The notes under the pieces are model-generated. The model saw nothing but the letters and a program-made list of their open reading frames with translations, did not search any database and was not told the origin of the DNA. A program made the position numbers and the translations under genes. Positions 13,862-29,595 of a DNA stretch of 48,327 nt are shown piece by piece. Positions within the stretch are counted from its first letter, which is position 1. Each line of letters opens with the position of its first letter. The stretch is from NCBI GenBank assembly GCA_902623585.1, contig CACNUO010000007.1:1-48327 (forward strand), written 5' to 3'. This stretch comes from an uncultured Alphaproteobacteria bacterium (GTDB lineage Bacteria > Pseudomonadota > Alphaproteobacteria > HIMB59 > GCA-002718135).

Positions 13862-15916
13862 ATGTTAAAAAAACTATTCATAGCGTTAGTATTTTCTTCC
13901 GCAACCTTTGTCTGGAGTGGAAGCTCTTTTGCAGGTGGTCATTGCGTAGGTACAACAATGAACGATGCACAGACAGGCGGAAAATATCCTCAGCAATATG
14001 AGTTATCAGAATATGAAAGTGCAGCCGGCTGTACTATGAAGTTTTCAGATAATCCAAATATTGCTAGCATAAACGCTACAATACAAGGTAACCCAGGAAG
14101 TCTACCTCCAGTTGAGGATAGATTACCTGATGAGCCACTTGTTGTAGTACCATATGAGTCTATTGGTAAATATGGAAATACAATAAACTTCTTATCGAAT
14201 GCAACTGAAGCTGGAACTTCTGATATGCTATCTACAAGACACGTAAACTTATTACGTTTTGCTGATGACTTAACTACAATTGTTCCAAACGTTGCTAAAG
14301 ATTATGAGTGGAATGATGATTTTACTACTTTAACATTCATGTTACGTAAAGGTCACAAGTGGTCAAATGGTGAACCTTTTGTGGCTAGAGATGTTGAGTT
14401 TTGGTACGAAGATTTGATGATGAATCCAAAGATTCGTGAAAAACCATATCCATATCTTTTAGTTGGTGGTGAGCCAATGACTGTTGATGTAATTGATGAT
14501 CAAACAGTAAGATTTAACTTACCATCTCCGTTCCCTGGTTTAACTGCAACTATTGCATGGTCATATAACCAGTTCTTCATGCCTTCACATTTCCTAGAAC
14601 AATTCCATCCGGAAATTGATTCAAATGCTGATGCAAATGCTCAGGCATTAGGATTTGCAGATGGTTATGATGCTTTAGCAGCATATTATGGTAACTCAGG
14701 TTGGACTGATACTCCAACTCCTTTACTAGCTAAACCAGATCTAGTTGCTGGATTACCTTATGCAGCTTATCCTTCTTTAGAAGCTTACATGACTATTGAA
14801 GATACTACTGAAGGTAGAGTCTATGCAGCTAACCCATACTTTTTCCAAGTTGATACAGCTGGAAATCAATTACCATACATTGATTATCAAAATGAAAGAT
14901 ACATCAATGAAAATGAAATAAGATTGTTAAAACTTGTTAATGGTGAAGTTGATTATAAATCACAGTCTGTTCAATTAGAGTCCGCTCCTCAATTACTTGA
15001 TGGTGCTGAGTCTGGTGGATATCAAGTTCAAATCAATCCAGGTTGTGGTGCTGCATTATTTAGTTTTAATGTAACACATCCTGATCCTGAAAAACGTAAA
15101 GTCTATGGGGATATTCGTTTCCGTCAAGCAATGTCAATTGCTATGAATAGAGACGAGATCAACGAAGTTGCATATTACGGTTTAGGTAAAGTTGAGCAGT
15201 TTGTAGGATTTTCTCCTGCACCTGACTTCGTCCCTGAAAGTATAAAAATGCATATGACGCAATACGATCCAGATGGAGCAAATGCTCTTCTTGATGAAGT
15301 AGGATTAAAAGACGTTGATGGTGATGGATTTAGAGAATTACCAAATGGTGATGCTCTAGCTATTAACATTGACTATGCTACTCAAGGTATTGGTGGTGTT
15401 GAAGTTGAACTTGTTGCAAGATACTTCAATGAAGTAGGAGTAAAAACTACTTTTAAAGAGGTAACTCCAGATGAATATCGTGGTTCGCAAGCTGCTAACC
15501 AACTTGACGTTCATGTTTGGGATAAAGGTCAACCATTAGCAATTGTTGCTGGTAACCCAGAAACATTTAAACCTCCGTTTGGTAACTACTTTAACCATAC
15601 ACAAGGTTTAGATTGGGCAGCATACATTGATAGTAATGGTGACGAAGGTACTAAACCTCCTCAGTGGGTATATGACTTAAGTGATGGAATTGATAAATTC
15701 CAATCTTACGCTCTTGGTACTGCTGAGTCTAATGAGTGGGGTGAAAAAATTGCAACAATGTTAACAGAGCAAAGTCTATTGATTGGTACGGTGAAAGCAC
15801 CTTTCCCAACTTATCATAGAAATGCTTTGAAAAACTTTACGCAGTTTAAAACTACTTCGTATGAGTATTATAGAACATACCCATACCTAGCTACTCAATG
15901 GTGGTTAGACGAGTAA
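13862..15916 (+). CDS. Peptide-type (family 5) ABC transporter substrate-binding protein
   Basis: This is a 684-residue periplasmic protein of the DppA/OppA family (SBP_bac_5), clearly longer than DppA (about 535). The Sec signal peptide ends SSFA at residue 24, giving a mature N-terminus Gly-Gly-His-Cys. Family features are the DLTTIVPNVAKDYEWNDD pattern, LRKGHKWSNGEPFVARDV, and the later FNVTHPDPEKRKVYGDIRFRQA motif. Enlarged members of this family often bind oligosaccharides rather than peptides (for example the Agp alpha-galactoside system), and the neighbours here are sugar enzymes. A strong site (AGGAG) precedes the ATG and an intrinsic terminator follows the stop, so it is probably made in excess over its permeases. 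Confidence 0.9.
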   Translation: MLKKLFIALVFSSATFVWSGSSFAGGHCVGTTMNDAQTGGKYPQQYELSEYESAAGCTMKFSDNPNIASINATIQGNPGSLPPVEDRLPDEPLVVVPYESIGKYGNTINFLSNATEAGTSDMLSTRHVNLLRFADDLTTIVPNVAKDYEWNDDFTTLTFMLRKGHKWSNGEPFVARDVEFWYEDLMMNPKIREKPYPYLLVGGEPMTVDVIDDQTVRFNLPSPFPGLTATIAWSYNQFFMPSHFLEQFHPEIDSNADANAQALGFADGYDALAAYYGNSGWTDTPTPLLAKPDLVAGLPYAAYPSLEAYMTIEDTTEGRVYAANPYFFQVDTAGNQLPYIDYQNERYINENEIRLLKLVNGEVDYKSQSVQLESAPQLLDGAESGGYQVQINPGCGAALFSFNVTHPDPEKRKVYGDIRFRQAMSIAMNRDEINEVAYYGLGKVEQFVGFSPAPDFVPESIKMHMTQYDPDGANALLDEVGLKDVDGDGFRELPNGDALAINIDYATQGIGGVEVELVARYFNEVGVKTTFKEVTPDEYRGSQAANQLDVHVWDKGQPLAIVAGNPETFKPPFGNYFNHTQGLDWAAYIDSNGDEGTKPPQWVYDLSDGIDKFQSYALGTAESNEWGEKIATMLTEQSLLIGTVKAPFPTYHRNALKNFTQFKTTSYEYYRTYPYLATQWWLDE

Positions 15917-15937
15917 TTTAACTCAATAAATAATAAA

Positions 15938-15974
15938 AAAAGCGGCAATTATATATTGCCGCTTTTCTTTTTTT
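15938..15974 (+). terminator. Intrinsic terminator between binding protein and permease genes
   Basis: A 12-base-pair stem (15938-15949 with 15955-15966; core GCGGCAAT/ATTGCCGC) closes a five-base loop TATAT and runs into a T-rich tract to 15974 with one C. The permease ATG follows 28 bases later without a Shine-Dalgarno sequence. Partial read-through would yield much binding protein and little permease. Confidence 0.88.
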
Positions 15975-16002
15975 AATTATTCTTGTCTCCTAATTATTTT
16001 AT

Positions 16003-17016
16003 ATGATTAATTTTATACAATTTACTCTCACAAGAGCAGGACTTGCAATTATAACTTTGCTTCTTGTATGCTTTATTGTTTTTTCATTAATGGAATTAGT
16101 TCCTGGAACTTGTGCTGAAAGATATCTAGCATTTAAAAATACACAAGGATCACAAATAACTTATGAAGACATAGAAAAAGAAAAAATTCGTTTAGGTTTA
16201 GATAAACCTTTTTTGTATAGATATGGCAAATGGGTTTCTAATATAGTTTTTAATGGAGATTTTGGTGATAGTTGTATTCTAAGAATGAATATTAATGAAT
16301 TATTAAGTGGAAGATTTACTTTATCTTTAACAATATGTTTGGTTGCACTTATATTTTCATATTTAATTGCCATACCAGTTGGGATCATATCGGCCACGAC
16401 AAAATATGCATCATTAGATAATACGCTTAAATTTATTAGTTATCTTGGAATAGCACTTCCCAATTTTTTAGTAGCACTCTGTATTATGCTTTTTATGACT
16501 GTTTACTATGGCGATACGATGACAGGTTTATTTTCTCAAGAATATGAAAACGAACCCTGGTCATCAGCAAAACTATTTGATTTTTTAAGTAGAGCTTGGC
16601 TTCCAATATTTGTTTTAGGTTGGAATGCAACTGCCTTTGCTCTTCAAACAGTAAGAGCACTAATGCTAGATGAAAATGATAAACTATATGTAATGGCTGC
16701 AAGGGCTAGAGGAATATCAGGAATGAGTTTGTTGTGGAGATATCCCGCAAAACATTCTTTAGGTCCAGTAATCAATTCTATAGGTTTCGACCTTAATCGT
16801 ATATTTAGTGCATTGCCGATTGTAGCCTTAATTTTAATTCTTACTGAAGCTGGGGCATTGTTGATTGAAGCTCTAGCAAGATCAAATGATCAGCAATTAG
16901 CAGGTGCAATTATTTTTCTTCTAACAGCAACAATTGTTTTTGTTAATTTTATAACGGATATTATTTTAGCTATAATTGATCCAAGAATAAGAAAAGGAGT
17001 TATGGGTGGAGGTTAG
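16003..17016 (+). CDS. Peptide-type ABC transporter permease (DppB-like)
   Basis: This 337-residue inner-membrane permease has TM1 at about 10-32, then the DppB-type exported segment with LGLDKPFLYRYGKWVSNIVFNGDFG, and a C-terminal BPD_transp_1 domain. The ATPase-contact loop is at about 230-250 (YVMAARARGISG). The stop region overlaps the next permease gene by 11 bases. It pairs with the DppC-like protein to form the channel of the importer fed by the 684-residue binding protein. No Shine-Dalgarno sequence is visible before the ATG, which lies 28 bases beyond the terminator. Confidence 0.93.
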   Translation: MINFIQFTLTRAGLAIITLLLVCFIVFSLMELVPGTCAERYLAFKNTQGSQITYEDIEKEKIRLGLDKPFLYRYGKWVSNIVFNGDFGDSCILRMNINELLSGRFTLSLTICLVALIFSYLIAIPVGIISATTKYASLDNTLKFISYLGIALPNFLVALCIMLFMTVYYGDTMTGLFSQEYENEPWSSAKLFDFLSRAWLPIFVLGWNATAFALQTVRALMLDENDKLYVMAARARGISGMSLLWRYPAKHSLGPVINSIGFDLNRIFSALPIVALILILTEAGALLIEALARSNDQQLAGAIIFLLTATIVFVNFITDIILAIIDPRIRKGVMGGG

Positions 17017-18166
17017 TAATCAAAAAAAAGAAGCTTATTACACTGCTACGCAGATGCAGTTAGTAAGAACACGCTTTTTTGGAAACAGATCAGCTATGAT
17101 TGCTGGTTCTATTTTATTGTTTATGATTATTTGTAGTCTCTTTGCTGATTTTTTATCACCTTATGATCCAACAATTAAAGGGAGAGATAAAGATTATGAA
17201 AATGGTGCGCCTCAAATTCCAATGTTTTGGGATGAGAATGGTTTTTCCGCTAGACCTTTTTTACATACATTAGAAAAATATAGAGGAGCAGATACAAATT
17301 TTAGATGGGTGTATAAAGTTGATACTGAAAAAAGAAGATACGTTTATTTTTTTGTCGAAGGCTGGGAATATAAAGTTTTTGATTTTAATATAAATCTTCC
17401 CGGTAAAATTTTAGATTTTAAAATTCCAGGTTTTACATTTAATACTCATTTATTTGGCGTCGAAGAGGGTGGAATTCATATATTTGGAACAGATAAAGCT
17501 GGAAAAGATTTATTTAGTAGAACTTTAAGTGCAATTTATATTTCGCTAGCTGTAGGTACACTTGGTGTTTTTATATCATTTGTACTATCGCTAATTATTG
17601 GAGGAATTTCAGGTTATTATGGTGGTTGGATTGATAGTGTACTTCAAATGTTTACTGATGCAATTCGAACGGTTCCACCAATACCTCTGTTTATGTGTCT
17701 TGCTGCTTTTGCACCATTAGAATGGAGTTCTGAATTACGTTTCTTTTTTATATCTTGTTTGCTTGGATTAATTTCATGGCCAACACTTGCTAGAAGAGTA
17801 AGAACACATCTACTTAGCGAAAGAAGCCAAGAATATATTCTTGCTGCAAAACTTTGTGGAGCATCTTCTACTCACATTATTGTAAGACATTTATTACCAA
17901 GTTTCACTAGCTACATTATTGTCGATTTAGTCATTAGTTTTCCATATATGTTATTATCTGAAACGGCTTTAAGTTTTATTGGACTTGGTTTAAGAGAACC
18001 CGTAAACTCTTTAGGTGTACTTTTGCAAAATGCAACAAAGGCTGACGTACTTTTAAACTATCAATGGTATTTTATACCTGTATTTTTCTTAGTCGTATTA
18101 ATTTTAACATTTGTTTATGTAGGGGATGGGTTACGTGATGCAGCAGATCCTCATAAGGTAAAATAA
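17006..18166 (+). CDS. Peptide-type ABC transporter permease (DppC-like), GTG start
   Basis: The protein has 386 residues; DppC is about 300. The start is GTG at 17006, chosen because AAGGAG sits seven bases upstream; a later ATG at residue 17 lacks such a site. TM1 (about 30-50) is followed by a hydrophilic insert of some 90 residues (about 55-150) rich in Tyr, Phe and Asp, before the usual FGTDKAGKDLFSR motif. YejE-type and sugar-type members carry similar inserts. The C-terminal domain includes YILAAKLCGASSTHIIVRHLLP, the ATPase-docking loop. The insert probably forms a periplasmic contact with the enlarged binding protein. Confidence 0.92.
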   Translation: MEVSNQKKEAYYTATQMQLVRTRFFGNRSAMIAGSILLFMIICSLFADFLSPYDPTIKGRDKDYENGAPQIPMFWDENGFSARPFLHTLEKYRGADTNFRWVYKVDTEKRRYVYFFVEGWEYKVFDFNINLPGKILDFKIPGFTFNTHLFGVEEGGIHIFGTDKAGKDLFSRTLSAIYISLAVGTLGVFISFVLSLIIGGISGYYGGWIDSVLQMFTDAIRTVPPIPLFMCLAAFAPLEWSSELRFFFISCLLGLISWPTLARRVRTHLLSERSQEYILAAKLCGASSTHIIVRHLLPSFTSYIIVDLVISFPYMLLSETALSFIGLGLREPVNSLGVLLQNATKADVLLNYQWYFIPVFFLVVLILTFVYVGDGLRDAADPHKVK

Positions 18167-18167
18167 T

Positions 18168-19157
18168 ATGAGTCATTTATTAGAAGTAAAAAACTTAGAT
18201 GTAAAATTTGATACTGATGAAGGTAGAATTACAGCAGTTGAAAACATTTCACTTTCTGTAGATCAAGGTGAAGTACTAGGTATAGTTGGTGAATCTGGAT
18301 CAGGTAAATCTGTGACAGCTAAATCAATTATGAAATTAAACCCAGGTAACACCTCTTATAATGAAGATGCAGAAATAATATTAGATAACGAAAACGTTCT
18401 TCAATTTACTTCTAAACAAGACTTAAAAAAAATTAGAGGTGGAAAAGTATCAATGATTTTTCAAGAGCCTATGGCAAGTTTTGCTCCAGCTATAAAAATT
18501 GGTGCGCAAATGGTTGAGCAATTACTAATACATAAAAATATTAATAAAGATGAAGCAAAATCTATATCTATAAATATGCTTAAAAGAGTAGGTATTGCAG
18601 ATGCAGAAAAACGGTTTAATCAATATGCATTTGAATTATCTGGAGGAATGCGTCAAAGAGCGATGATAGCTATGGCACTTTCAACTATGCCAAAACTTTT
18701 ATTGGCAGATGAGCCAACAACTGCCTTAGACGTTACAATTCAAGCTCAGGTAATTAACTTAATTAAAGATATTATAAAAGAATATCAAATGGGAGTAATA
18801 TTTATTACTCATGATCTAGGTGTTATTGCCCAGGTAGCTGATCATGTAGCAGTAATGTATTTAGGGAGTGTAGTAGAAAAAGGTCCAGTAAATGAGATTC
18901 TTAAAAATCCCAAACATCCTTATACAAAAGGTCTATTGCAAGCCTTGCCTGATATAAATAACTTAGATGCACCATTATCCCCAATACCTGGAAACATTCC
19001 AAGTCCATTAGATAGACCTACAGGCTGTGTGTTTAGAACTAGATGCCCTCATCACAATCCAGAGGGTAAAGATGGTAAAATTGAAATGAAATTAATTGAA
19101 GTTGAACCAGGTCACTGGGTTGATCAGTGTGGAATTAAGTGTGGTCAAAATGGGTAA
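18168..19157 (+). CDS. Peptide-type ABC transporter ATP-binding protein (DppD-like)
   Basis: This 329-residue ATPase has Walker A GESGSGKS (about 42-49), a Q-loop FQEP, signature LSGGMRQR, Walker B LLLADEPTTALD and the H-loop THD. The C-terminal oligopeptide/dipeptide domain with GCVFRTRCPHHNP and a final EVEPGHWVDQC is present; in characterised relatives the cysteines of this tail bind an Fe-S cluster or zinc. It powers the importer jointly with the next gene, which it overlaps by eight bases. Confidence 0.95.
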   Translation: MSHLLEVKNLDVKFDTDEGRITAVENISLSVDQGEVLGIVGESGSGKSVTAKSIMKLNPGNTSYNEDAEIILDNENVLQFTSKQDLKKIRGGKVSMIFQEPMASFAPAIKIGAQMVEQLLIHKNINKDEAKSISINMLKRVGIADAEKRFNQYAFELSGGMRQRAMIAMALSTMPKLLLADEPTTALDVTIQAQVINLIKDIIKEYQMGVIFITHDLGVIAQVADHVAVMYLGSVVEKGPVNEILKNPKHPYTKGLLQALPDINNLDAPLSPIPGNIPSPLDRPTGCVFRTRCPHHNPEGKDGKIEMKLIEVEPGHWVDQCGIKCGQNG

Positions 19158-20136
19158 TAATTTAATTTCAGTAAATAACGTTTCTGTAAATTTTGATTAT
19201 CAAGAGAATTTTATTTCAAAAAAACAAAAAATACATGCTGTAAACAATATTAATATCAAAATTCAAAAAGGATCTTTTTTTGGTTTAGTAGGTGAGTCTG
19301 GTTCAGGAAAAACTACTCTTGGCAGGGCAATACTTGGAGCTAACAAAATTAGTTCAGGAAATGTTATTTTTCATGATGATGAAAGAGATTATGATTTAAC
19401 AAATATGAACAAACAAGATTTAAAAGAATATAGAAAAAAAGCCCAACTAATCTTTCAAGATCCTTATGCTGCTTTAAGCCCAAGAATGACAGTTAGAGAT
19501 ATTATAGCAGAACCTTTAGAAGTTATGAAAATAACAAATTCAAGACAAGAGACTGATGAAAGAGTAAGAGATATAGCATCTAAATGTAGATTAAATATTG
19601 AACATCTTAGAAGGTTTCCTCATGCATTTTCTGGAGGACAAAGGCAAAGGATATCAATTGCAAGAGCTTTAGTAAGTAATCCAAAATTTATTGTAGCAGA
19701 TGAAAGTGTTGCTGCTTTAGATGTATCAATACAAGCAGATATATTAAATCTTTTAAAACAACTTCAAACTGAACTAAACCTTACTTACTTATTCATAAGT
19801 CATGATTTAAGTGTAGTAGCGCATGTATGTGATGTCGTTGCTGTTATGTATTTGGGTCATATAGTTGAAATGGGACCCTCTAGACAATTATTTAAGAACC
19901 CTAAACATTCTTATACAAAAGCATTATTATCTTCTATTCCATCAATTGATCCAGAAAAAAGATCTCAAGCTATAGAGCTAAAAGGAGAAATTCCTAGCGC
20001 ATTAAATCCACCTCCAGGTTGTGTGTTTAGAACAAGATGTCCTAATCCCGGAATAGATTGCAAAGGTGGAGAAATAAAAATGGGGCTTACTGAAGTTGAA
20101 CCAGGTCATTGGGTCGATCAGTGTTGTGCTCTATAA
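19150..20136 (+). CDS. Peptide-type ABC transporter ATP-binding protein (DppF-like)
   Basis: This is the second ATPase of the importer, 328 residues from the chosen ATG at 19150 (MGNNLISVNNVSVNF). An upstream in-frame ATG at 19096 would add 18 residues translated from the tail of the preceding gene and is rejected. It shows Walker A GESGSGKTT, Q-loop FQDPYAAL, signature FSGGQRQR and Walker B FIVADESVAALD, in which the usual Pro after Asp-Glu is Ser. It ends with the same GCVFRTRCP and EVEPGHWVDQC tail as its partner. With it the importer gene set is complete (binding protein, two permeases, two ATPases). Confidence 0.93.
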   Translation: MGNNLISVNNVSVNFDYQENFISKKQKIHAVNNINIKIQKGSFFGLVGESGSGKTTLGRAILGANKISSGNVIFHDDERDYDLTNMNKQDLKEYRKKAQLIFQDPYAALSPRMTVRDIIAEPLEVMKITNSRQETDERVRDIASKCRLNIEHLRRFPHAFSGGQRQRISIARALVSNPKFIVADESVAALDVSIQADILNLLKQLQTELNLTYLFISHDLSVVAHVCDVVAVMYLGHIVEMGPSRQLFKNPKHSYTKALLSSIPSIDPEKRSQAIELKGEIPSALNPPPGCVFRTRCPNPGIDCKGGEIKMGLTEVEPGHWVDQCCAL

Positions 20137-20154: not shown

Positions 20155-21144
20155 ATGAAAAATATCGCATTTATTGGAACCTCACATATTCATACGCCAA
20201 ATTTTATTGCTAAGGTAATTTCAAACAATCAAATTAATTGCATTGGTGTTTGGGACAAAGACAAGAACAGGTCAAAAAGTGATTCTGAAAAACTGCAATG
20301 TAAGAATTATGATAACTATATTGATTTATTGAAAGAACCTAATTTAGATGGTGTTATTGTATGTTCAGAAACTAATTTGCACTATGAATTAGTTAAAAAG
20401 ATTACCGAGAATAAAAAACACTGTTTTATAGAAAAACCTTTGGGGATAGGAAAAAAAGATTCTTTTGAAATGGCAAATCTTATTGAGTCTTCAAATATTA
20501 TTTTTCAAACTGGATATTTCATGAGAAGCAATCCTGTTTACATAAAACTTAAAGAACTAATTACTGCTAATTATTTTGGTGAAATTTCAAGAATTCGACT
20601 CGTTAATTGTCACGATGGTATTATGAGGGATATTTTCAAAAACTATCTGTGGATGACTGATCCCAAAGTTGCTGGAGTTGGAGCTTTTGGTGATTTAGGA
20701 ACACATGTTTTAGATCTTCTATTGTGGTTTTTTTCTGATGTTGAGTCAGTAAGTGCAACCTTTACAAAAGTATATAATCAATATCCAGGTTGTGAAGAGA
20801 GTGGAGAAGCATTAATAAAATTTAAAAGTGGGTTGATAGCTAGTATTGCTGCGGGATGGATAGATGTAGCGCAGCCTTATACTATTTTTGTAAGTGGAAC
20901 GAAAGCTCACGCAAGAACAACGAATGAGCAATTAATTATAAACGAATATAAGGAAGGTAAAAAAATAGAAAGAATAGAAGAAAATTTACCAGAAACATTG
21001 CCTCATGCATTTGATTTGTTTCTCAATTCATTAATTGATAACAATACTAAAAACCTAGTTACTCCTACAGAAGCAGCATTGAGAAGTGGTATAATGGAAT
21101 CAATTTACCAATCAGAAAAAGAAAAAAAATGGATAAATATCTAA
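20155..21144 (+). CDS. Gfo/Idh/MocA-family oxidoreductase with His-rich nucleotide loop
   Basis: A protein of 329 residues. The N-terminal Rossmann fold starts NIAFIGTSHIHTPNF, in which the usual GxGxxG is replaced by a loop containing two His. The family EKP motif is intact (IEKPLGIGKK, about 94-103), and GAFGDLGTHVLDL carries the conserved Asp and His of the catalytic region. It is the first enzyme gene after the importer, 18 bases downstream. Relatives oxidise sugars or inositols at C-OH with NAD(P), and some use NAD to cleave glycosides. Given the following epimerase and ComDE genes, it probably handles the imported compound. Confidence 0.85.
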   Translation: MKNIAFIGTSHIHTPNFIAKVISNNQINCIGVWDKDKNRSKSDSEKLQCKNYDNYIDLLKEPNLDGVIVCSETNLHYELVKKITENKKHCFIEKPLGIGKKDSFEMANLIESSNIIFQTGYFMRSNPVYIKLKELITANYFGEISRIRLVNCHDGIMRDIFKNYLWMTDPKVAGVGAFGDLGTHVLDLLLWFFSDVESVSATFTKVYNQYPGCEESGEALIKFKSGLIASIAAGWIDVAQPYTIFVSGTKAHARTTNEQLIINEYKEGKKIERIEENLPETLPHAFDLFLNSLIDNNTKNLVTPTEAALRSGIMESIYQSEKEKKWINI

Positions 21145-22231: not shown

Positions 22232-23131
22232 ATGAAAAATAATTTATTTTTAGCTATTATATTATCACTTTCAGGTTTGTTTTTATTGGATTGTATGGGG
22301 ATTGCGATAAAGTTTTTACGAAACGAATATCCAGCAGCTCAACTTTCTGTTTTTAGAAATTTATTTGGCATGATCCCATGTGTTATTGCTTTATATTTTT
22401 CACATGATTGGCATCAAAACGGTAGACAAATAAAAATAACGCAATGGAAGTTAGGATTATTTCGAGGGGTATTTGTAGCGCTGGCTCAATTGTGTTTGTA
22501 CACTTCTTATGGCTACCTTCCTTTTGCTTTAGTTGCTACCATGGAATACACAGGACCTATGATGGTTACCCTTCTTGCTATTCCTATATTAGGTGAAAAA
22601 TTTGGTTGGTATAAAATGAGTGCAGTAATTTCTGGTTTTGCAGGTATCGTTTTAATTATGCAACCTTGGTCATCAGATTTTAATTATATGTTATTACTAC
22701 CTATTCTTGCTGCTTTTGGATATTCATTAGCAAGAGTAACATCCTTAAGTTTTGAGGATCATGTTCCTTCACCACTTATCAACTTGTATGGTCAAACTGG
22801 AACAATCATAGTTGCATGTATGTTAGTGATGTTTTTTGGTATGTGGGAAAATTTTAAAAGTGTAAATGATTTCTTAGTAGTTTGTGTCATGGGAATTGCA
22901 GGAGGATCTGGAACTTTATTATTAATATATGGCGCAAGAAAAGCAGAACTTAGTAAAATTATGCCATTTGATTATATCGAGATATTTTTTGCACTTATTT
23001 TAGGTTGGATATTTTTTGCAGAATGGCCAGTTGATCAACTTTTCCCAGGTGCTTTTTTCATAGTTTTAGGTGGATTAATCATTTATCTTCAACAAAGAAA
23101 AAATAATTTTCAAAGATTAAGGAAAACATAA
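22232..23131 (+). CDS. EamA/DMT-superfamily permease
   Basis: This 299-residue membrane protein has ten predicted spans in two EamA repeats (about 8-140 and 150-290). ALVATMEYTGPMMVTLLAIPILGEKFG is the first-repeat signature and MPFDYIEIFFALILGWIFFAEWP the second; I cite the family as RhaT/EamA drug-metabolite type. It is embedded in the putative sulfonate-sugar operon between a Gfo/Idh gene and the aldose epimerase, overlapping the latter by one base. A role as exporter of an end product or intermediate is plausible. It is a different subtype from the minus-strand copy at 6767-7624. Confidence 0.85.
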   Translation: MKNNLFLAIILSLSGLFLLDCMGIAIKFLRNEYPAAQLSVFRNLFGMIPCVIALYFSHDWHQNGRQIKITQWKLGLFRGVFVALAQLCLYTSYGYLPFALVATMEYTGPMMVTLLAIPILGEKFGWYKMSAVISGFAGIVLIMQPWSSDFNYMLLLPILAAFGYSLARVTSLSFEDHVPSPLINLYGQTGTIIVACMLVMFFGMWENFKSVNDFLVVCVMGIAGGSGTLLLIYGARKAELSKIMPFDYIEIFFALILGWIFFAEWPVDQLFPGAFFIVLGGLIIYLQQRKNNFQRLRKT

Positions 23132-24183
23132 TGGAATATAAAATTGACAAACTTCAAAATGATAAAGGTTTAGATATAGACATAGTTAATATTATTAACT
23201 CAAATAATTATAGTTTTAGTTTTTATACATATGGTGGCTATATGAGTGAAGTTTGTATTCCAACTTCTTCTAATGTCTCTGAAACAGAGGATGTATTATT
23301 AGGCTATGGTAATTTAGACGATTGTCTGGAAGCTCATGGATATTTTAATTCAATTATTGGAAGAGTTTGTAATAGAATAGGGCAAAGTAAATTTACTCTT
23401 AATGGGGAAGAATATAATTTATATTCTAATACCGAGCCTGATCATCTTCATGGTGGAGAGGTAGGTTTTAATAAAAAGATTTGGAAAATAGCAGATATTA
23501 AAAAAACAAGTGAAAGTATAAAAGTAGAGCTCACTTACCACTCTAAACATTTTGAAGAAAATTATCCAGGCAACTTAAATTGTAAAACTATTTACGAACT
23601 TAATAATAATAACGAAATTCTAATTTCCTTTAATGCTACTACAGATCAAGATACTATTGTTAATATGACTAATCATAACTATTGGAATTTCCATGGCCAT
23701 AAAGATAATTATAAAAATATTACTGACCATGTTGTCAGAATATCATCTAATCAAATTTGCGAAACTGATGAGGGATCAATTCCTACTGGTAAATTATTTG
23801 ATGTAGTTAATACAAAATATGATCTTAATAATTCATTTGAAATTGATAAATCTTTTTTAGAAGGCGGTGGTATTGATCACAATTATGTTCTCAAAGATCA
23901 TTCTATTGATCAATCTATAGCTTCCATCTACAGTAATATTACTGGTATGGGAGTTGAATACTCGACTGATCAACCTGGAATACAATTTTATACTGGTAAT
24001 ATGATGAAAGATTCATATCATGGCAAACATAATCGAAATTATGGATTACAATATGGTATGTGTCTAGAGACGCAAATTTTTCCAGATGCTATTAATCAGC
24101 CAAATTTTCCATCAACTATATTAAAAGTAGGCGAAACATATAATTCAAATACAAAAATAAAATTAAGAAATGATTTTAAATAA
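23131..24183 (+). CDS. Aldose 1-epimerase (mutarotase)
   Basis: This 350-residue GalM-family protein contains GRVCNRIGQSKFTLNGEEY, LHGGEVGFNKKIW (first catalytic His region), NMTNHNYWNF (second His) and FYTGNMM with the C-terminal catalytic Glu in CLETQIFPDAINQPNFP. It interconverts alpha and beta anomers of an aldose. In sulfoglycolytic clusters the GalM-family YihR is the sulfoquinovose mutarotase; placement directly before comDE and a YihV-like kinase makes that comparison relevant. The generic sugar role is the safer reading. Upstream overlap of one base with the permease gene. Confidence 0.92.
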   Translation: MEYKIDKLQNDKGLDIDIVNIINSNNYSFSFYTYGGYMSEVCIPTSSNVSETEDVLLGYGNLDDCLEAHGYFNSIIGRVCNRIGQSKFTLNGEEYNLYSNTEPDHLHGGEVGFNKKIWKIADIKKTSESIKVELTYHSKHFEENYPGNLNCKTIYELNNNNEILISFNATTDQDTIVNMTNHNYWNFHGHKDNYKNITDHVVRISSNQICETDEGSIPTGKLFDVVNTKYDLNNSFEIDKSFLEGGGIDHNYVLKDHSIDQSIASIYSNITGMGVEYSTDQPGIQFYTGNMMKDSYHGKHNRNYGLQYGMCLETQIFPDAINQPNFPSTILKVGETYNSNTKIKLRNDFK

Positions 24184-24229: not shown

Positions 24230-24730
24230 ATGAAAATCAGTAAAAAAATCATAGATAATTTAAAAAAAGGTGGAGTAGATTTTTACTTAAGTGTTCCTTG
24301 TAAGTTATTAGCCAACATGATTGATATCCTTGAAAATGATAAAGATGTTTATTATTCGGCTGTACCAAGAGAGGAAGAAGGTATGGGTATTTGTGCTGGA
24401 GCTTATTTAGGAAATAAATTCCCGTGTATAATGATGCAGAATACAGGGATTGGAAATTCAGTGAATGCAATTGTTTCTCTATTACAATTATATCAAATGC
24501 CTGTTGTTTTTTTAATTAGTTACAGGGGTACACCTGGTGAGCCAGTAGGAGCGCAAGGTGGAATGGCGAAGATTACTGAAGATATTTTACAAACGTTGAG
24601 AATACCTATGTTGCATTGCTCTTCTGAAAAAGAATTAGATAAAATTTCAACATTTAGCAAACATGCCAAAGTTGTTGAATCACCTGTAGCTATTTTATGT
24701 GATTTCAATTTAATGAAAGATGATAAATGA
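24230..24730 (+). CDS. comD: Sulfopyruvate decarboxylase, alpha subunit
   Basis: At 166 residues this matches the pyrimidine-binding (N-terminal) half of ThDP decarboxylases as found in the split ComD subunit. YSAVPREEEGMGICAGAYL provides the catalytic Glu, and MQNTGIGNSVNAI and ISYRGTPGEP follow as in archaeal ComD. The VPCK stretch near residue 22 resembles ComD rather than the VPDS of phosphonopyruvate decarboxylase. With ComE it would convert 3-sulfopyruvate to sulfoacetaldehyde and CO2. It ends in an ATGA overlap with the beta-subunit gene. A 46-base AT-rich gap without visible signal precedes it. Confidence 0.88.
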   Translation: MKISKKIIDNLKKGGVDFYLSVPCKLLANMIDILENDKDVYYSAVPREEEGMGICAGAYLGNKFPCIMMQNTGIGNSVNAIVSLLQLYQMPVVFLISYRGTPGEPVGAQGGMAKITEDILQTLRIPMLHCSSEKELDKISTFSKHAKVVESPVAILCDFNLMKDDK

Positions 24731-25296
24731 ACCGTTTTGATTTATTAAATAAGGTACAAAATATTCTTAAAGATAACTTAGTTATTTGTAATATAGGTCT
24801 TCCATCTCAAGAATTATATAAAATTAGTGATCAACCAAATTTTTTTTATATGTTAGGCAGTATGGGCTTATCATCTTCTATTGGCTTAGGCTTGGCACTA
24901 TCCCAAAATAAACACGTTATTAGTATAGATGGTGATGGATCAGTTTTAATGAATATGAATACCCTAGCAACAATAGGTAATAGAGCGCCATCAAACTATA
25001 CTTTATTGATAATTGATAATGGTTCTTATGGATCAACAGGAGATCAACGAACATTTACTGATGAGAAAACTTCCTTAAAGGATGTTGCATTAGGAGCTGG
25101 CTGTAAAAATGTGATTGAATGTTCTGGCGAGGAAACAGTTAATGAATTAAACAAAGCCATTGATGATAAAGATAATTCATATGTAATAATTTCAAAGATC
25201 AATTCTGGAAATGTTAAAATTGATCCCATTCCACTCAATCCTATAACTATAAGAGACAGGTTTAGAAAGTTTATTGGTAAAGTTAAATACCTTTAA
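24727..25296 (+). CDS. comE: Sulfopyruvate decarboxylase, beta subunit
   Basis: This 189-residue subunit carries the ThDP diphosphate-binding half. CNIGLPSQELYK, FYMLGSMGLSSSIGLG, the GDG...N thiamine motif (GDGSVLMNMNTLATIGN) and DNGSYGSTGDQRT correspond closely to archaeal ComE as I recall it, including the C-terminal PLNPITIRDRF. Together the two genes form one heteromeric enzyme. In bacteria ComDE serves sulfolactate and sulfopyruvate degradation; in archaea it serves coenzyme M synthesis. The adjoining kinase and 2-hydroxyacid dehydrogenase favour a catabolic role here. Confidence 0.9.
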   Translation: MNRFDLLNKVQNILKDNLVICNIGLPSQELYKISDQPNFFYMLGSMGLSSSIGLGLALSQNKHVISIDGDGSVLMNMNTLATIGNRAPSNYTLLIIDNGSYGSTGDQRTFTDEKTSLKDVALGAGCKNVIECSGEETVNELNKAIDDKDNSYVIISKINSGNVKIDPIPLNPITIRDRFRKFIGKVKYL

Positions 25297-25306
25297 TTAA
25301 TATTTT

Positions 25307-26215
25307 ATGATCATTTGCGCAGGATCAATATTTACAGATTACATAAGTAGGATTAATAAATTTCCAAAAAAACCAATTAAAGTTTTATCTAGAGGTATTG
25401 ATAAAAGATTAGGTGGTTCAGCAGCAGTATCGGCATTTACTGCAAAAATTTTGGGATCTGAATCAAAATTCATAGGAAAATTTGGAGATGATGATTCATC
25501 AGTCTTTTTAAAAAATGAATTAAAAAAATTTTCTATAAATACTAGTAAATCAATTTTTATTAAAAAATGTCAGTCTTCGCAAAGCTTTGTAATTGAGGAT
25601 ACAAAAGGTGAAAGATTACTAGCAGCATATAATGATCCAAAATTACTTGATTATAAGAAAATACCCAAATTAAATTTTAAAAAAAAGGATATTTATTCAA
25701 TAGATATGAGATGGATAAATATGGCCTCTTATATTGCTATTAATACCAATAAAAAAAATATTAAATGTGTTGCTGATCTAGATAATTTTAAAAATTCTAA
25801 TAAAATTTCTGAAATTGTTCACAAAGCTTCGCACCCTATATTTTCTGAAGAAGGTTTGAAAACTTATAAAAAAAACATCAATATGCAAAAGGCTCTTTTT
25901 CAAATATTCAATGAAACAAATAAATTTGTTGCAGTTACTATGGGATCAAAAGGTGTTTATTGGGTTGAAAATAACTCATTATATCATTGTAATGTTCCAA
26001 AAGTAAAAACAGTTGAAACGAATTGTGCAGGAGATGTTTTTCATGGTGCTTTTGCAACAGCTCTATCATTAAATAAATCAAACTCTCAAAGTATTCAATT
26101 GGCAGCAGCTACTGCAACTTTAAAATGCATGAAAGCTGGAGGCGTATATTCAATACCAAATTTAAACAACGTAAAAAAGTTTTTAAAAAAATTAAAAATT
26201 AGAAAAATTAAATGA
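25307..26215 (+). CDS. PfkB-family sugar kinase, resembling sulfofructose kinase YihV
   Basis: A protein of 302 residues, PfkB length. It has GGSAA near residue 37, the KFGDDD stretch, and the catalytic ETNCAGDVFHGAF near 245, where Asp is the base (CAGD instead of the usual GAGD). Several segments recall E. coli YihV (6-deoxy-6-sulfofructose kinase): SSQSFVIEDTKGER, DMRW, FSEEGL and LKCMKAGG. In my manual alignment to the recalled YihV sequence, the sulfonate-binding Lys27 and Arg138 correspond to Lys25 and Arg135, while Asn109 falls on Ala107. Directly between comE and a 2-hydroxyacid dehydrogenase gene. Kinase identity is sure; sulfosugar specificity is a hypothesis. Confidence 0.87.
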   Translation: MIICAGSIFTDYISRINKFPKKPIKVLSRGIDKRLGGSAAVSAFTAKILGSESKFIGKFGDDDSSVFLKNELKKFSINTSKSIFIKKCQSSQSFVIEDTKGERLLAAYNDPKLLDYKKIPKLNFKKKDIYSIDMRWINMASYIAINTNKKNIKCVADLDNFKNSNKISEIVHKASHPIFSEEGLKTYKKNINMQKALFQIFNETNKFVAVTMGSKGVYWVENNSLYHCNVPKVKTVETNCAGDVFHGAFATALSLNKSNSQSIQLAAATATLKCMKAGGVYSIPNLNNVKKFLKKLKIRKIK

Positions 26216-27147
26216 CAAAAATTTTAATTACAGAATTTATAGATTCACAATCATTGCAAAATATAAATAAAAAATTTGATGTAATTTATAAAAAAGATGC
26301 CTGGCAAAATAAAGATTTTTTAGAGAGAGAAATTCAGAAATTTGATGGCATCATCGTAAGGAATAAAACAAGTTTAGATAAGAAAATTTTAATAAATGCG
26401 TCAAATTTAAAGTTTATAGGAAGATTAGGTGTTGGTCTTGATAATATAGATACAGAATACTGTAAAAAAAATAATATCATTGTTCAGCCAGCAACAGGTA
26501 TGAATTCTGACTCTGTTGCAGAATACGTTGTGAATTCCTCTCTTACATTATTAAAAAAAACTCACATTATTAAAGAACAAACTCTACAAGGAAAATGGCC
26601 AAGGACATCAATTGTTACAAAAGAACTTAAAGGAAAGATTCTTGGCCTAATAGGCTTTGGGGATATTTCAAAAAAAGTTTTAAATCTTGTAAATGTTTTT
26701 GATGTTAGCTGTATTGCATATGATCCTTTTATAACTTCGAAACAAATGGAGGTAGAAAATGTTAAGAAAGTTTCATTCGATGAAATTCTTAATTTGGCCG
26801 ACATAATTTCTATTCATGTCCCATTAAATAATGAAACAAAGTATCTATTTGACAGACAAGCTTTTATTAAAATGAAAAAACAACCAATTATAATTAATTC
26901 TTCTAGGGGTGGCGTCATCAATGAAAAAGACTTAATTGATGCTTATAAAAATAAATATATCTCTGGTTTCGCATTAGATGTTTTTGAAAATGAACCAGTA
27001 AATGAAGCATTTTATAACAATATTACAAATGATATGAATTGCATCTTAACACCTCACATTGCAGGTGTAACTGCTGAATCAAACGTTAGAGTAAGTAATT
27101 TTATAATTGATAAAACAAATAAATTTTTTGAAAATTTTAAAGATTAA
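26212..27147 (+). CDS. D-isomer 2-hydroxyacid dehydrogenase, candidate sulfolactate dehydrogenase
   Basis: This 311-residue SerA-like dehydrogenase has the NAD-binding LGLIGFGDIS (about 143-152, Ser in place of the third Gly), the catalytic Arg in NSSRGGVIN, Glu in DVFENEP and His in LTPHIAGV. There is no C-terminal regulatory ACT domain. (S)-sulfolactate dehydrogenase SlcC belongs to this family and makes sulfopyruvate, the substrate of ComDE encoded 1.5 kb upstream in the same operon. Phosphoglycerate or glyoxylate/hydroxypyruvate activity is the alternative. ATGA overlap with the kinase gene; the stop runs 11 bases into the convergent Gfo/Idh gene. Confidence 0.88.
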   Translation: MTKILITEFIDSQSLQNINKKFDVIYKKDAWQNKDFLEREIQKFDGIIVRNKTSLDKKILINASNLKFIGRLGVGLDNIDTEYCKKNNIIVQPATGMNSDSVAEYVVNSSLTLLKKTHIIKEQTLQGKWPRTSIVTKELKGKILGLIGFGDISKKVLNLVNVFDVSCIAYDPFITSKQMEVENVKKVSFDEILNLADIISIHVPLNNETKYLFDRQAFIKMKKQPIIINSSRGGVINEKDLIDAYKNKYISGFALDVFENEPVNEAFYNNITNDMNCILTPHIAGVTAESNVRVSNFIIDKTNKFFENFKD

Positions 27148-28225
27148 ATTCACTCATCTTAACCACACGATTTTCTTTTATTGATTTCTCTGCTGCTTCT
27201 CCAATAGCCACTGCATGAAGACCATCGTTTATAGAAACTTGTGGTTTTAAATTATTATTAATTGCTTTAATAAATTCTAAATGTTGATAATAAGTCGATC
27301 CATGATGTTGCCCAGCTGATAAAATTTTTTTATCTACCTCAACTAATTCTTTAATTGCATTTTTAGAGTTTCTTAAACCTATTCTAACTTCTGAAGAGTT
27401 TTTTCCTGATGCATCAGCTGGCACACCTGTTTCTATTTTACCCTTATCTCCAACAACACATAGCTCTTCTTGCATTTCTGAATTTTCTGCAAACATACAA
27501 AGTTCTAAAGAACTTCTTATTCCATTTTCAAAATCTAAAATTACAAATGCATTGTCCAATATATCAGGAACTTTTCCATTATAATTTTCATTAAGATGAT
27601 TTACACTTTGGTCACCACTTGCATATACTTGTGTAACTTCACTATTTGTAATTAGTCGCATTAAATCAAAAAAATGACAGCATTTTTCTACTAATGTTCC
27701 ACCGGTGTTTATTTGGAATCTATTCCAATCATCTACTTTTTTGAGAAATGGAAATCTATGTTCGCGAATTGAAAGCATTTTAAGTTTACCAATTTTATTA
27801 CTATCTATTTCTTGGATCATTTTTTGAACAGGTGGCATGTACCTATACTCCATAGCCACCCATATTACTGATGGATATGAAGTTGATAATTTTTTAATTT
27901 CAAGACAATCTTCTAATTTTGAACATAAGGGTTTTTCAATTAATAAATGTTTTTTTGTTTTTAACGCTTCTTTAATAATATCATGATGGGTAAAATTGGG
28001 AGTCGAAATAATAAAAGCATCCACTTCATTACTTTTAAAAATTTCATTATTATTTGAATAGATTTTAATATCATTTGAGATAAGATTTTTAGCTTTATTT
28101 ATTGAATTATCATTACTGTCTGAGATGGCAACTACTTCAGCTGAATCTATAAGATTAATATTTGAAATATGTTCACAGCCCATTAGTCCACTTCCAACAA
28201 TTCCATATTTAATTTTCGTTTTCAT
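27137..28225 (-). CDS. Gfo/Idh/MocA-family oxidoreductase
   Basis: This 362-residue dehydrogenase has KYGIVGSGLMGCEH (GxGxxG), LIEKPLCSK (about 93-101) and GGTLVEKCCHFFDLMR, where Lys and His take the place of the usual D-x-x-x-H arrangement of inositol dehydrogenase. The C-terminal half includes QHHGSTYYQHLEFI. The gene starts in an ATGA overlap with the fucose-isomerase-like gene upstream on the minus strand, so the two are co-translated. The pair faces the sulfonate-type operon. Substrate unknown; a sugar connected with the isomerase partner is likely. Confidence 0.86.
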   Translation of the reverse strand: MKTKIKYGIVGSGLMGCEHISNINLIDSAEVVAISDSNDNSINKAKNLISNDIKIYSNNNEIFKSNEVDAFIISTPNFTHHDIIKEALKTKKHLLIEKPLCSKLEDCLEIKKLSTSYPSVIWVAMEYRYMPPVQKMIQEIDSNKIGKLKMLSIREHRFPFLKKVDDWNRFQINTGGTLVEKCCHFFDLMRLITNSEVTQVYASGDQSVNHLNENYNGKVPDILDNAFVILDFENGIRSSLELCMFAENSEMQEELCVVGDKGKIETGVPADASGKNSSEVRIGLRNSKNAIKELVEVDKKILSAGQHHGSTYYQHLEFIKAINNNLKPQVSINDGLHAVAIGEAAEKSIKENRVVKMSEFNL

Positions 28226-29595
28226 GTTGTGTAAATTGGAATATTTAATTGCGCACTTAGTTTTTTTATTTCTGAATATACATCTCCATATGTGAATGCT
28301 AGATGATGTTCGATACCAGACGTGAATAATCTAACTAATTTTTGATAGGTATTTGTTTGAAATTTCACAACACCCGAAGTACCTGAAAATGAATTTTTTT
28401 TATCTAAAACTTCACCTTTAATAACAATAAATTTTAATTTATTTTCTGATTTTGAAACTCTAAATATCGTTATTTTTCCAGGTCTAAATGCAAAATCATG
28501 TAGCAAAGCTTTCCTTCTATTAGAATGTACAGTTGCACTTGCTGTATTTTTTTTTGCCATACTAATTGGAGCTAATCCACAATGCCAAAAAACTAAAGTA
28601 TCAGTTTTGGGATCGCAATCAACAACATCTACTAAAAGTGAAGGTCTGTTATTTATCTTATTTAAAATATCGCAACTTATACTTCCTAATACATCAGCTT
28701 CACATGCACTGCTAACTCCCTTTTCATTCATCATAGCCATTGGACCACATGATGCACATCCAAATTGAGTAAACATTTCAGGCCAACACTTAATTGCAAA
28801 AGTATCAATTTTGTTATCATTTTTTATTTTTTCTAACCCATGAAAAATTGAAATACTTTTATTTAATTCATTAGCATTCAACTTAGAGACTGATTTCAAA
28901 TCTTTTTTTATTTGATTTTTAGTTTTTGTAATATCTTTAGTGCTAACATTTTTAGAAATATTAAACAAAGTTTCTAATTTAATTTTCTTAAGACTATAAT
29001 TTAATTTTTTTTCTATTTCTCTATTATCATAATCACAGGTAAAAAATCCATCTGGTCTTTTTCCAACAAGTCCTAAATTCTTTTTTTTTGAAAAAATAAT
29101 GCCATCTTTCTTTTTAAAATTTTTTATTTTTTTCAATGTATTATTTTTTAAAATTTTTTTATTTTTTAAAAAATTATTAATTTTTTCCATTTCGAATAAT
29201 TTATTATTAATAAATATTGAAAATTCTGGCTTATATTTTAATTTGATTAAAGAATGCATAGCAAGATTTACACCACATAAAGAGTTCAATCTTAACCGCT
29301 TACCTGTTCTTGGCTCTTTAAAACTTATTAAATGTATTGGTTTATTAAATGTTTTAGCAAAGCTTGTTATAAATTTTGCATCAGTGAAAGTTGTTTGAGC
29401 AATGATATATTTGCTACAATTTAGTTTTTTAAAATATCTAATAGCTTTTTTCCCTGTTTCATCATCTGTAATTAATTCTTTAAAATGTGAGTATTTAATG
29501 TCTAAAATATCTATAAATTTTTCAAACCTTTTTTTATTATCTAAAGCATAATTTATATCAAATGTATCTCTTGCTAATGCTAAATAACCAATCAT
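28222..29595 (-). CDS. L-fucose isomerase-like protein (COG2407 type)
   Basis: This 457-residue protein is related to FucI/AraI-type ketol isomerases. The diagnostic C-terminal part contains IKCWPEMFTQFGCASCGP, VSSACEADVLGSIS (the Glu/Asp metal-ligand region) and DTLVFWHCGLAP with His. Residues about 130-180 are very Lys/Asn rich, which probably reflects AT pressure in a surface segment. Such proteins interconvert aldose and ketose, although many COG2407 members have no assigned substrate. The gene leads a two-gene minus-strand operon, divergent from a CUT1 importer. No Shine-Dalgarno sequence is visible. If the facing operon degrades a sulfosugar, this is a candidate for the aldose-ketose isomerase step. 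Confidence 0.78.
   Translation of the reverse strand: MIGYLALARDTFDINYALDNKKRFEKFIDILDIKYSHFKELITDDETGKKAIRYFKKLNCSKYIIAQTTFTDAKFITSFAKTFNKPIHLISFKEPRTGKRLRLNSLCGVNLAMHSLIKLKYKPEFSIFINNKLFEMEKINNFLKNKKILKNNTLKKIKNFKKKDGIIFSKKKNLGLVGKRPDGFFTCDYDNREIEKKLNYSLKKIKLETLFNISKNVSTKDITKTKNQIKKDLKSVSKLNANELNKSISIFHGLEKIKNDNKIDTFAIKCWPEMFTQFGCASCGPMAMMNEKGVSSACEADVLGSISCDILNKINNRPSLLVDVVDCDPKTDTLVFWHCGLAPISMAKKNTASATVHSNRRKALLHDFAFRPGKITIFRVSKSENKLKFIVIKGEVLDKKNSFSGTSGVVKFQTNTYQKLVRLFTSGIEHHLAFTYGDVYSEIKKLSAQLNIPIYTT

Follow-up and report, generated by a model that had tools for sequence, protein, structure and literature searches.

The window described here is an entire contig (CACNUO010000007.1, 48,327 bases) of an uncultured alphaproteobacterium of the order HIMB59, whose genome (GCA_902623585.1, labelled G000 hereafter, the window being its contig C7) comprises 1.11 Mb in 42 contigs and is 74.84% complete. 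It carries genes for the presumed degradation of sulfoquinovose (SQ), the sugar with a sulfur group that occurs in the membranes of plants and algae, and these genes fall into two parts: module A (13862-25296), in which a Dpp-type importer, EamA, GalM, ComD and ComE follow one another, and module B (25307-29595), an SQ cassette. We consider it probable that the locus is composite, that is, that the SQ cassette was plugged in behind a sulfopyruvate-decarboxylating module, which it would feed; because the cassette is inserted directly behind ComE, its product would flow into module A. Gene content, family kinship, module structure and conservation are given by the sequence, and from them we deduce all the substrates and the order of flow. 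Names for which there is no curated model were assigned by reading the sequence.

In the proposed route, SQ-glycerol would be cleaved to SQ by SqgA, a member of glycoside hydrolase family 188 (GH188), SQ would be isomerized to sulfofructose by an SftI-like isomerase, and sulfofructose would be phosphorylated to sulfofructose-1-phosphate by a YihV-like kinase. The phosphate would then be split into dihydroxyacetone phosphate and sulfolactaldehyde, by a LacD-like aldolase in some siblings and here perhaps by a class II fructose-bisphosphate aldolase; up to this point the route is likely to be a modified sulfo-Embden-Meyerhof-Parnas (sulfo-EMP) pathway. Sulfolactaldehyde would be oxidized to sulfolactate by a dehydrogenase, sulfolactate to sulfopyruvate by an SlcC-like dehydrogenase, and sulfopyruvate would be decarboxylated to sulfoacetaldehyde by ComDE. 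Module A would be a lineage-level unit, working with Xsc (not in this assembly) and Pta encoded elsewhere, so that sulfoacetaldehyde would give sulfite and acetyl-phosphate, and the latter acetyl-CoA. Module B would be a mobile cassette, in which the PfkB-SlcC pair converges with the SqgA-isomerase pair and which originally also included a LacD-like aldolase and a divergent Mal-type importer. This arrangement suggests that one small cell may take SQ entirely to sulfite. A sulfonated-sugar pathway had been proposed for this stretch in a preliminary description, and the GH188-type sulfoquinovosidase, the SftI-like isomerase, the YihV-nearest kinase, the SlcC-like dehydrogenase and ComDE strongly support that proposal.

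Predicted Enzymes of the Sulfoquinovose Cassette

When the convergent Gfo/Idh protein was compared with the Protein Data Bank (PDB), the top three matches were 8qc2, 8qc3 (Table 1) and 8zn9 (328.6 bits), and the next one reached 103.3 bits. The chain 8qc2 is a GH188 structure (PMC11465081). The residues K107, Y136, R166, L170, K172, E189, H193 and H321 of ArSqgA, whose catalytic and sulfonate-binding roles are taken from PMC10755693, are all kept in the window protein (8/8 aligned residues, counted by hand on the 8qc3 alignment with a constant offset of 13, by which Glu163 is not placeable, so that it was omitted). The protein is predicted to be a GH188-type sulfoquinovosidase. Consequently, the earlier statement that the window lacks a sulfoquinovosidase is wrong; the gene was overlooked because an enzyme of the GH31 type was what had been sought.

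The isomerase candidate has SftI (NF048012) as its sole NCBIfam match (E 8.8e-85). Its score is judged not to be generic, because five cassette-type isomerases elsewhere score 257-299 bits versus 135 (L040) and 97 (L042) for paralogues in other contexts; the isomerase of L149, whose context is unclear, reaches 321. The predicted fold has a mean confidence (predicted local distance difference test, pLDDT) of 92.7 when modelled from a deeper alignment (65.1 from a shallower one), and in a fold search of the PDB 41 of the 41 matches at E ≤ 0.001 were arabinose or fucose isomerases (AraA, E 2e-21; FucI, 1e-13). The metal-site candidates E299, D323 and H430, which by their spacing may correspond to the metal ligands of FucI, are invariant in 28/28 sequences. 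A sequence search of the PDB gave no relative of the isomerase except one chance match (E 0.32), and the 15 matches in plasmid records were all below 60% identity. In addition, siblings carry a paralogue with 27-29% identity (L040, 9332-10771; L041; L081). It belongs to a different island, which also encodes dihydroxyacetone-kinase-like proteins and E1-type dehydrogenase subunits, and in several siblings a LacD paralogue is found close by; this island would represent a second, probably non-SQ sugar pathway using the same enzyme families.

The closest solved relative of the PfkB-family kinase is the sulfofructose kinase 7ag6, as the designation YihV-like had implied. Lys27, Asn109 and Arg138 are presumably the sulfonate-binding positions of YihV, and the first and last of them are kept in the window kinase; among 12 aligned kinases, K is kept in 12/12, R in 9/12 and N in 5/12. 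The SlcC-like dehydrogenase travels beside the isomerase in other classes, too; a sequence search of the PDB at the strict limit of 1e-50 gave no relative of it. The seven genes from GalM to the isomerase are under purifying selection, the ratio of nonsynonymous to synonymous divergence (dN/dS) being 0.03-0.33 in two comparisons, with 0.11-0.19 for the kinase, the isomerase and SqgA and 0.15-0.33 for SlcC (dS is near saturation in the second comparison).

The layout agrees with the preliminary description in several respects. The co-directional run 13862-27147 contains the substrate-binding protein, two permeases, two ATPases, two Gfo/Idh proteins, EamA, the aldose epimerase, ComD, ComE, the PfkB kinase and the D-2-hydroxyacid dehydrogenase, and the third Gfo/Idh gene and the fucose-isomerase-like gene face this run. 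The packing is close (GalM-ComD gap, 46 bp; ComE-PfkB gap, 10 bp; PfkB-SlcC overlap, 4 bp) and is similar in 17 sibling loci. For DppF, an ATG near 19150 is the likelier start than the TTG at 19096.

Table 1. Genes of the probably composite locus and associated features of the window, with candidate functions and the matches on which the names are based.
Feature	Position	Strand	Basis
Pta-like phosphotransacetylase, possible Xsc partner	7648..8547	-	NF006045 308 bits, cut-off 282
Dpp/Opp-type substrate-binding protein, 684 aa	13862..15916	+	NCBIfam best Opp4A 103 bits, far under cut-off 650
Dpp/Opp-type permease B	16003..17016	+	NCBIfam Opp2B 176 bits
Dpp/Opp-type permease C	17006..18166	+	NCBIfam Opp4C 231 bits
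Dpp/Opp-type ATPase D	18168..19157	+	NCBIfam OppD 334 bits
Dpp/Opp-type ATPase F	19096..20136	+	NCBIfam OppF 351 bits
Gfo/Idh protein 1, accessory in module A	20155..21144	+	weak PDB relatives only, best 62 bits
Gfo/Idh protein 2, accessory	21160..22218	+	PDB nearest DgpA: 9m3d DgpA1 178 bits, 7xr9 DgpA 169
EamA permease (module A)	22232..23131	+	Pfam EamA; retained in cassette-free loci
GalM-type aldose 1-epimerase (module A)	23131..24183	+	galM_Leloir 256 bits vs PRK15172 27; retained in cassette-free loci
ComD, sulfopyruvate decarboxylase alpha	24230..24730	+	TIGR03845 161 bits, cut-off 147.95
ComE, sulfopyruvate decarboxylase beta, final gene of module A	24727..25296	+	TIGR03846 223.3 bits, cut-off 221.5
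PfkB-family sulfofructose kinase candidate, opens SQ cassette (module B)	25307..26215	+	PDB best 7ag6 160.6 bits, next 99.3
SlcC-like D-2-hydroxyacid dehydrogenase	26212..27147	+	Pfam 2-Hacid_dh; PGDH 256 bits, under cut-off 454
SqgA-like, GH188-type NAD+-dependent sulfoquinovosidase (predicted)	27137..28225	-	PDB 8qc2 357.5 bits, 8qc3 350.2
Sulfoquinovose isomerase candidate, SftI-like, L-arabinose/L-fucose isomerase fold	28222..29595	-	NF048012 SftI 285.1 bits
MalE-MalF-MalG-dehydrogenase-UgpC cassette, candidate SQ/SQ-glycerol importer	29734..35266	+	head-to-head with isomerase, 138 bp divergent gap

Distribution of the Two Modules

Full-length isomerases were found in 28 siblings, and 18 of their loci were fetched; GalM, ComD, ComE, PfkB, SlcC, SqgA and the isomerase occur together in all 18, and ComE is joined to the cassette with a gap of 8-21 bp in 17/17 measured sibling loci. 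Isomerase relatives in named records were followed through the best 80 of 118 encoding stretches, 53 of genus type and 27 foreign. ComE, PfkB, SlcC, SqgA and the isomerase stand together in 50 of the 53 genus-type loci, the remaining three being cut short; the 18- and 53-locus counts share many records and are not independent. The foreign loci include 11 of Thioglobus/SUP05 type (isomerase 50-52%, SqgA 64-66% identity) and 16 with Desulfosarcina, Tepidamorphaceae, Hyphomicrobiales, gammaproteobacterial and other labels, and a PfkB relative is present in 19 of the 27.

A ComE match of 209-225 bits was found in 47/61 genomes of the genus (26 of them above the cut-off) and in 36 of the 37 with the cassette, and the TIGR03846 cut-off was exceeded in 2/14 control genomes. 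The association of ComE with the cassette within the genus (p 4e-6) is not functional evidence, because both share one stretch and drop out together. The other 11 genomes with such a match have no isomerase, and all 11 loci were fetched. Eight of these (L178-L182, L184, L185, L188) are cassette-free, ComE being followed directly by a mannonate-dehydratase-like, an aldo/keto-reductase-like or an agmatinase-like gene, and seven of them show GalM, EamA and Dpp ahead of ComE (L184 is cut); L183, L186 and L187 are uninformative because the contigs end, though L186 and L187 show PfkB. In G056, ComE and the aldo/keto reductase are about 24 kb apart, and the segment between them carries, besides the SQ cassette, a number of sugar modules that extend as far as Rbs genes. 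Since the Dpp-EamA-GalM-ComDE block stands without the cassette in eight loci and the island of G056 lies between ComE and the aldo/keto reductase, the block is read as a host unit and the SQ cassette as the leftmost part of an accessory island of sugar genes. In evolutionary terms, therefore, the single operon assumed earlier does not hold, as the stretch up to ComE exists without the remainder in relatives.

Xsc above the cut-off (676.4 bits) occurs in 48/101 searched genomes, all of this genus, and in 0/14 control genomes; among the cassette-bearing genomes of the genus, 30/37 have it, G000 being one of the seven without. In 18 genomes Xsc lies on the contig of the isomerase, 23-62 kb away and on the Dpp side in 18/18; the window extends 28 kb in that direction, enough to have included Xsc in the nearest case only (G054, 23 kb). 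There is indeed no Xsc in the window, as had been noted, and this is accounted for because the contig ends, the genome is incomplete and the Xsc genes of relatives lie farther out. The best match in G000 was read as an acetolactate-synthase-type enzyme. A histidinol-dehydrogenase family gene (L057, 18380-19702; hisD 431 bits) stands beside CysDN-like genes near Xsc in G056, and it might be HpsN, the 2,3-dihydroxypropane-1-sulfonate (DHPS) dehydrogenase, which belongs to that family. In the window (7648-11121), the Pta-like gene is divergent from an AptA-type omega-aminotransferase gene and an alanine-dehydrogenase-like gene. These genes may form a taurine/sulfoacetaldehyde module; however, the aminotransferase scores above the cut-off for AptA (585 vs 500), and the 25 matches listed do not include any taurine-specific model.

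Outside the genus, the same upstream part appears to have a different end. ComE was not found in 16/16 genomes with a related isomerase (best 44.6 bits; the completeness of those genomes is not given), and 7/9 Thioglobus-type genomes searched match the GarD family with a frame 392-402 aa long. Three of these were read, and in them a 391-aa protein, 66-67% identical to the SuyB-like protein of L155, follows a 93-aa partner; the names SuyA and SuyB are based on family, size and context, and the pair is taken as a putative alternative outlet. It has to be considered that the cassette of the window degrades SQ while sulfolactate or another C3 sulfonate is excreted, with module A serving another sulfonate, for example sulfopyruvate derived from cysteate or sulfolactate, by way of the Dpp importer. 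The lack of ComE in those 16 genomes, the cassette-free module A of the eight siblings and the spread of Xsc over the genus irrespective of the cassette would all fit with this. On the other side, the SlcC-like dehydrogenase of the cassette itself would supply the substrate of ComDE, to which the cassette is so closely joined in all the loci measured; moreover, although 5/8 genomes of the own genus match the GarD family, the proteins of the three siblings read are only 26-27% identical to the SuyB-like protein, so that these have no SuyB-like gene, and G000, G054 and G060 have no GarD-family match. Excretion is regarded as unlikely, and a cassette feeding module A is preferred.

A still smaller probability is given to the arrangement of the preliminary description, namely a single operon dedicated to sulfosugars, headed by a Dpp-type importer specific for SQ and including a mutarotase for this sugar. 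The co-directional run with short gaps is in its favour, and so is an SftI-like isomerase near Dpp-type transporter genes in a Desulfosarcina metagenome-assembled genome (L149, 5020-11125; SqgA and LacD not in view). However, Dpp and GalM are retained in the cassette-free siblings (in view in 7/8 loci), the gene for the Dpp substrate-binding protein being found in siblings both with and without the cassette, and GalM matches galM_Leloir far better than PRK15172, which we take to be the YihR model (Table 1). Neither the assignment of GalM as the SQ mutarotase YihR nor a Dpp importer devoted to sulfosugars is thus supported. In addition, L035 has the cassette with an importer of Pot type (assigned by reading) in place of Dpp, and no Dpp gene is in view in 11/11 Thioglobus-type loci (7.7-21.4 kb).

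What moves with the cassette appears to be a Mal-type importer. A MalE-like gene of at least three types lies beyond the isomerase, or beyond its LacD neighbour or one hydrolase gene (L034), in 17/17 sibling loci. The Mal-type binding proteins of Thioglobus-type loci are 77-83% identical to those of the siblings L036 and L038 and 70-74% to that of L070, whereas the IlvB-type protein of G000 and its counterpart in two Thioglobus-type genomes are 53% identical. Because of this difference, the cassette is concluded from sequence to have been laterally transferred between classes, and the ABC (ATP-binding cassette) importer accompanying it is predicted to be the Mal-type one. In the window itself the Mal-type importer, whose binding protein is encoded at 29734-31011, belongs to a different type (34-37%), common to L029, L030 and L035.

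The remaining genes of the region can be described briefly. Gfo/Idh proteins 1 and 2 are present in 7/16 fetched cassette-bearing loci showing Dpp versus 0/7 cassette-free loci showing Dpp; protein 1 had no informative relative in the PDB search, and protein 2 was rejected as a second GH188 enzyme, the GH188 chain 8qc2 giving only 29.5 bits and DgpA being nearest. Compared with G039 (L026, 15941), DppC is nearly unchanged (dN/dS 0.003, dS 0.34), whereas GalM, encoded in the same run, has accumulated more change (dN/dS 0.089, dS 1.09), and gene-by-gene recombination may explain the contrast. The genes at 11118-13710, which point away from the Dpp operon, encode a protein resembling MetE and a sulfatase of the PehA-like kind (411 bits, cut-off 900); a close sulfatase is also found beyond DppA in L028, L037, L039 and G056. 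On the other side of the Mal-type importer is a uronate-type sugar island (35266-44882) with mannonate dehydratase (446 bits), fructuronate-reductase-like and weakly glucuronate-isomerase-like genes and several Gfo/Idh proteins. An Ldh2 protein inside this island (42656-43705), considered as ComC, scores 212 bits for L-sulfolactate dehydrogenase versus 210 for ureidoglycolate dehydrogenase (ComC cut-off, 500). An RbsB-type binding protein and two adjacent RbsC-type permeases, named by reading the sequence, follow at 44987-47999.

The Proposed Aldolase, Aldehyde and Decarboxylase Steps

The preliminary description noted the lack of a sulfoglycolytic aldolase in the window, and this is true: a sulfofructose-phosphate aldolase like LacD or YihT was found neither there nor in the rest of the assembled genome. 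Its suggestion that the pathway is split across the genome fits Xsc, which is present in relatives and lies off this contig. No transaldolase or transketolase was recognized among the scanned proteins of the window, the rest of the genome not having been searched for them. A LacD-like aldolase gene adjoins the isomerase in 5/18 sibling loci and 22/27 foreign loci; the five foreign loci where it is not seen include two of Thioglobus type (L135, L148). It lies directly upstream of the isomerase in G057 (339 aa, NF009498 323 bits, cut-off 184), G050, G020, G026 and G059, and G036 has one at a contig edge. In G060 a decayed remnant remains in situ, matching mainly the two ends of the protein, and G034 has a 29-residue end piece. 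The LacD-like gene was therefore probably ancestral to the cassette and lost more than once, even though the kinase, the isomerase and SqgA stay under purifying selection, and it follows that another aldolase must act or that the intermediate is diverted.

As for replacements, G000 has a 354-aa class II Fba-type gene at about G000:C1:109695-110663 and a class II gene in an iol operon (both by reading the sequence). The class II Fba was not borne out as a universal replacement, the only match in G056 and in G060 being as short as the iol-type gene; the only PF01791 match in G000 was read as DERA. There is no match to the class I aldolase PF00274 in G000, and only 1/19 genomes (G060) has one, which is the sole proof that this search works because the 14 control genomes gave none. 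By reading, the aldehyde dehydrogenases of G000 are one MMSDH-like protein, one encoded beside a phosphonoacetate hydrolase-like gene, one beside DERA and one without assignment.

It is hardly to be believed that ComDE is instead a phosphonopyruvate-type decarboxylase, feeding phosphonoacetaldehyde dehydrogenase-like and phosphonoacetate hydrolase-like enzymes and unrelated to the sugar genes: that decarboxylase family does come next in the profile comparison (100 bits for ComD and 134 for ComE), and a PhnA-like gene adjoins an aldehyde dehydrogenase gene on another contig (G000:C8; names by sequence reading), but both subunits exceed the sulfopyruvate decarboxylase cut-offs and stand ahead of the other thiamine diphosphate enzyme (161 vs 100 and 223 vs 134 bits), separate subunits are the ComDE form, and Xsc occurs widely among genomes of the genus.

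Several points speak against the proposed SQ route through ComDE and have to be weighed together. The isomerase is far under the SftI equivalog cut-off (285 vs 700 bits), so it may work like SftI and is not filed as SftI; the position of N109 of YihV is Ala in the window kinase; and the SlcC-like dehydrogenase, named for its enzyme family and its co-occurrence with the cassette, has an identity drawn from family and context only. ComE clears the cut-off by less than 2 bits, and in 21 of the 47 genomes of the genus that carry it the score stays slightly below that value. In G000, which is 75% complete, neither a LacD-like aldolase nor Xsc (best 263.8 vs 676.4 bits) was found, and no sulfolactaldehyde dehydrogenase could be assigned: there are four aldehyde dehydrogenase genes (five PF00171 matches), none of them in the window, and reductases were not searched for. 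Furthermore, Xsc is about equally common without the cassette (18/24 vs 30/37, p 0.75), and the link of ComDE with SQ is not exclusive, since ComDE in cassette-free siblings must draw sulfopyruvate from elsewhere. The wider proposal is put forward only tentatively, with a chance somewhat below even: that streamlined bacteria of the AEGEAN-169/HIMB59 type mineralize SQ fully inside the cell by GH188, an SftI-type isomerase, the kinase, a substitute aldolase after repeated loss of LacD, and SlcC-ComDE-Xsc, the upstream half being a plug-in cassette shared with Thioglobus-type bacteria, in which it ends with SuyAB.

Relation to Known Pathways and Significance

Sulfolactate is degraded by SlcC-ComC-ComDE-Xsc in the Chromohalobacter and Roseovarius type of pathway. 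The SlcC-like dehydrogenase adjoining ComDE, and Xsc in relatives, resemble this route; unlike there, they are joined to an SQ cassette, so sulfolactate would be internal and not imported. With the sulfo-EMP pathway of E. coli (yih) and Arthrobacter sp. AK01, the locus shares the SQ isomerase step, a kinase nearest to YihV, a GH188 SqgA as in AK01 (PMC10755693) and, in some siblings, a LacD-like aldolase. It differs in that the isomerase is of the SftI/fucose-isomerase type and not YihS, the aldolase gene was not found in G000, the cluster has no recognized sulfolactaldehyde reductase or dehydrogenase, and SlcC-ComDE, with Xsc in relatives, takes the place of DHPS or sulfolactate as the product.

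A published parallel in gene content is an actinobacterial GH188 cluster with a fucose isomerase, a sulfofructose kinase, a D-3-phosphoglycerate-dehydrogenase gene and a sulfolactate sulfo-lyase, described as a possible new pathway (PMC11465081). Those Y158/Y160 GH188 clusters (Backlund and Higgins 2024, PMC11465081) resemble the window in these genes other than the lyase and in an ABC transporter, and their sulfofructose-phosphate aldolase is present in one cluster type and absent from the other, likewise variable here. They have, however, sulfolactate sulfo-lyase genes and a sulfolactaldehyde dehydrogenase, whereas the window has ComDE and no recognized sulfo-lyase, and position 170 of the window GH188 protein is Leu, not Tyr. 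The Thioglobus/Pseudothioglobus-type cassettes (L131, L133-L140, L147, L148) share the LacD-isomerase-SqgA-PfkB-SlcC set and a divergent or adjoining Mal-type importer, L135 and L148 lacking LacD as the window does; they differ in the absence of ComE from the genomes searched, in the SuyA-SuyB-like pair of the three read and in the GarD-family frame of 7/9.

HIMB59 is also named AEGEAN-169 (PMC10308909). That paper makes no mention of sulfo, taurine or xsc, and a paper on HIMB59 islands (PMC10734472) makes none of sulfo. In the available part of a 2026 survey of SQ in marine and freshwater (PMC13372026), AEGEAN, HIMB59, SAR11, ComD and sulfopyruvate are not mentioned, nor is GH188 so spelled; the survey suggests that SQ in the environment is broken down by more than one organism acting together. 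The SQ users named in the literature consulted include the Roseobacter clade, Vibrio, Micrococcaceae, Sphingomonadaceae, Rhizobiaceae and Rhodospirillaceae, with this clade not among them. No link of SQ to AEGEAN-169/HIMB59 or Thioglobus appeared in titles or abstract starts among the matches listed, by which absence from print is not established, and sulfoquinovose and sulfopyruvate decarboxylase came together in the searched literature only where ComDE stands in an enzyme list. Accordingly, the parts are known, and the combination of an SQ cassette with ComDE in this host is not found in the searched literature, mostly without subscription papers.

SQ is formed at 10 billion tons a year (PMC10755693). 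If the proposed reading is true, a cassette with a sulfopyruvate outlet in open-ocean single-cell genomes would assign a share of this flux to oligotrophs of very small size, possibly within one cell. In an Arctic study (PMC10504371), the signatures of low-ice Atlantic water include AEGEAN-169 and SUP05, and SQ-use genes are reported to be enriched in low-ice communities; the available part of it draws no link between AEGEAN-169 and SQ use, and the present locus, if correctly read, would connect the two. In addition, the locus would be an example of modular evolution, one upstream cassette being combined with different C3-sulfonate outlets, and it raises the question of which aldolase stands in for the lost LacD-like one.

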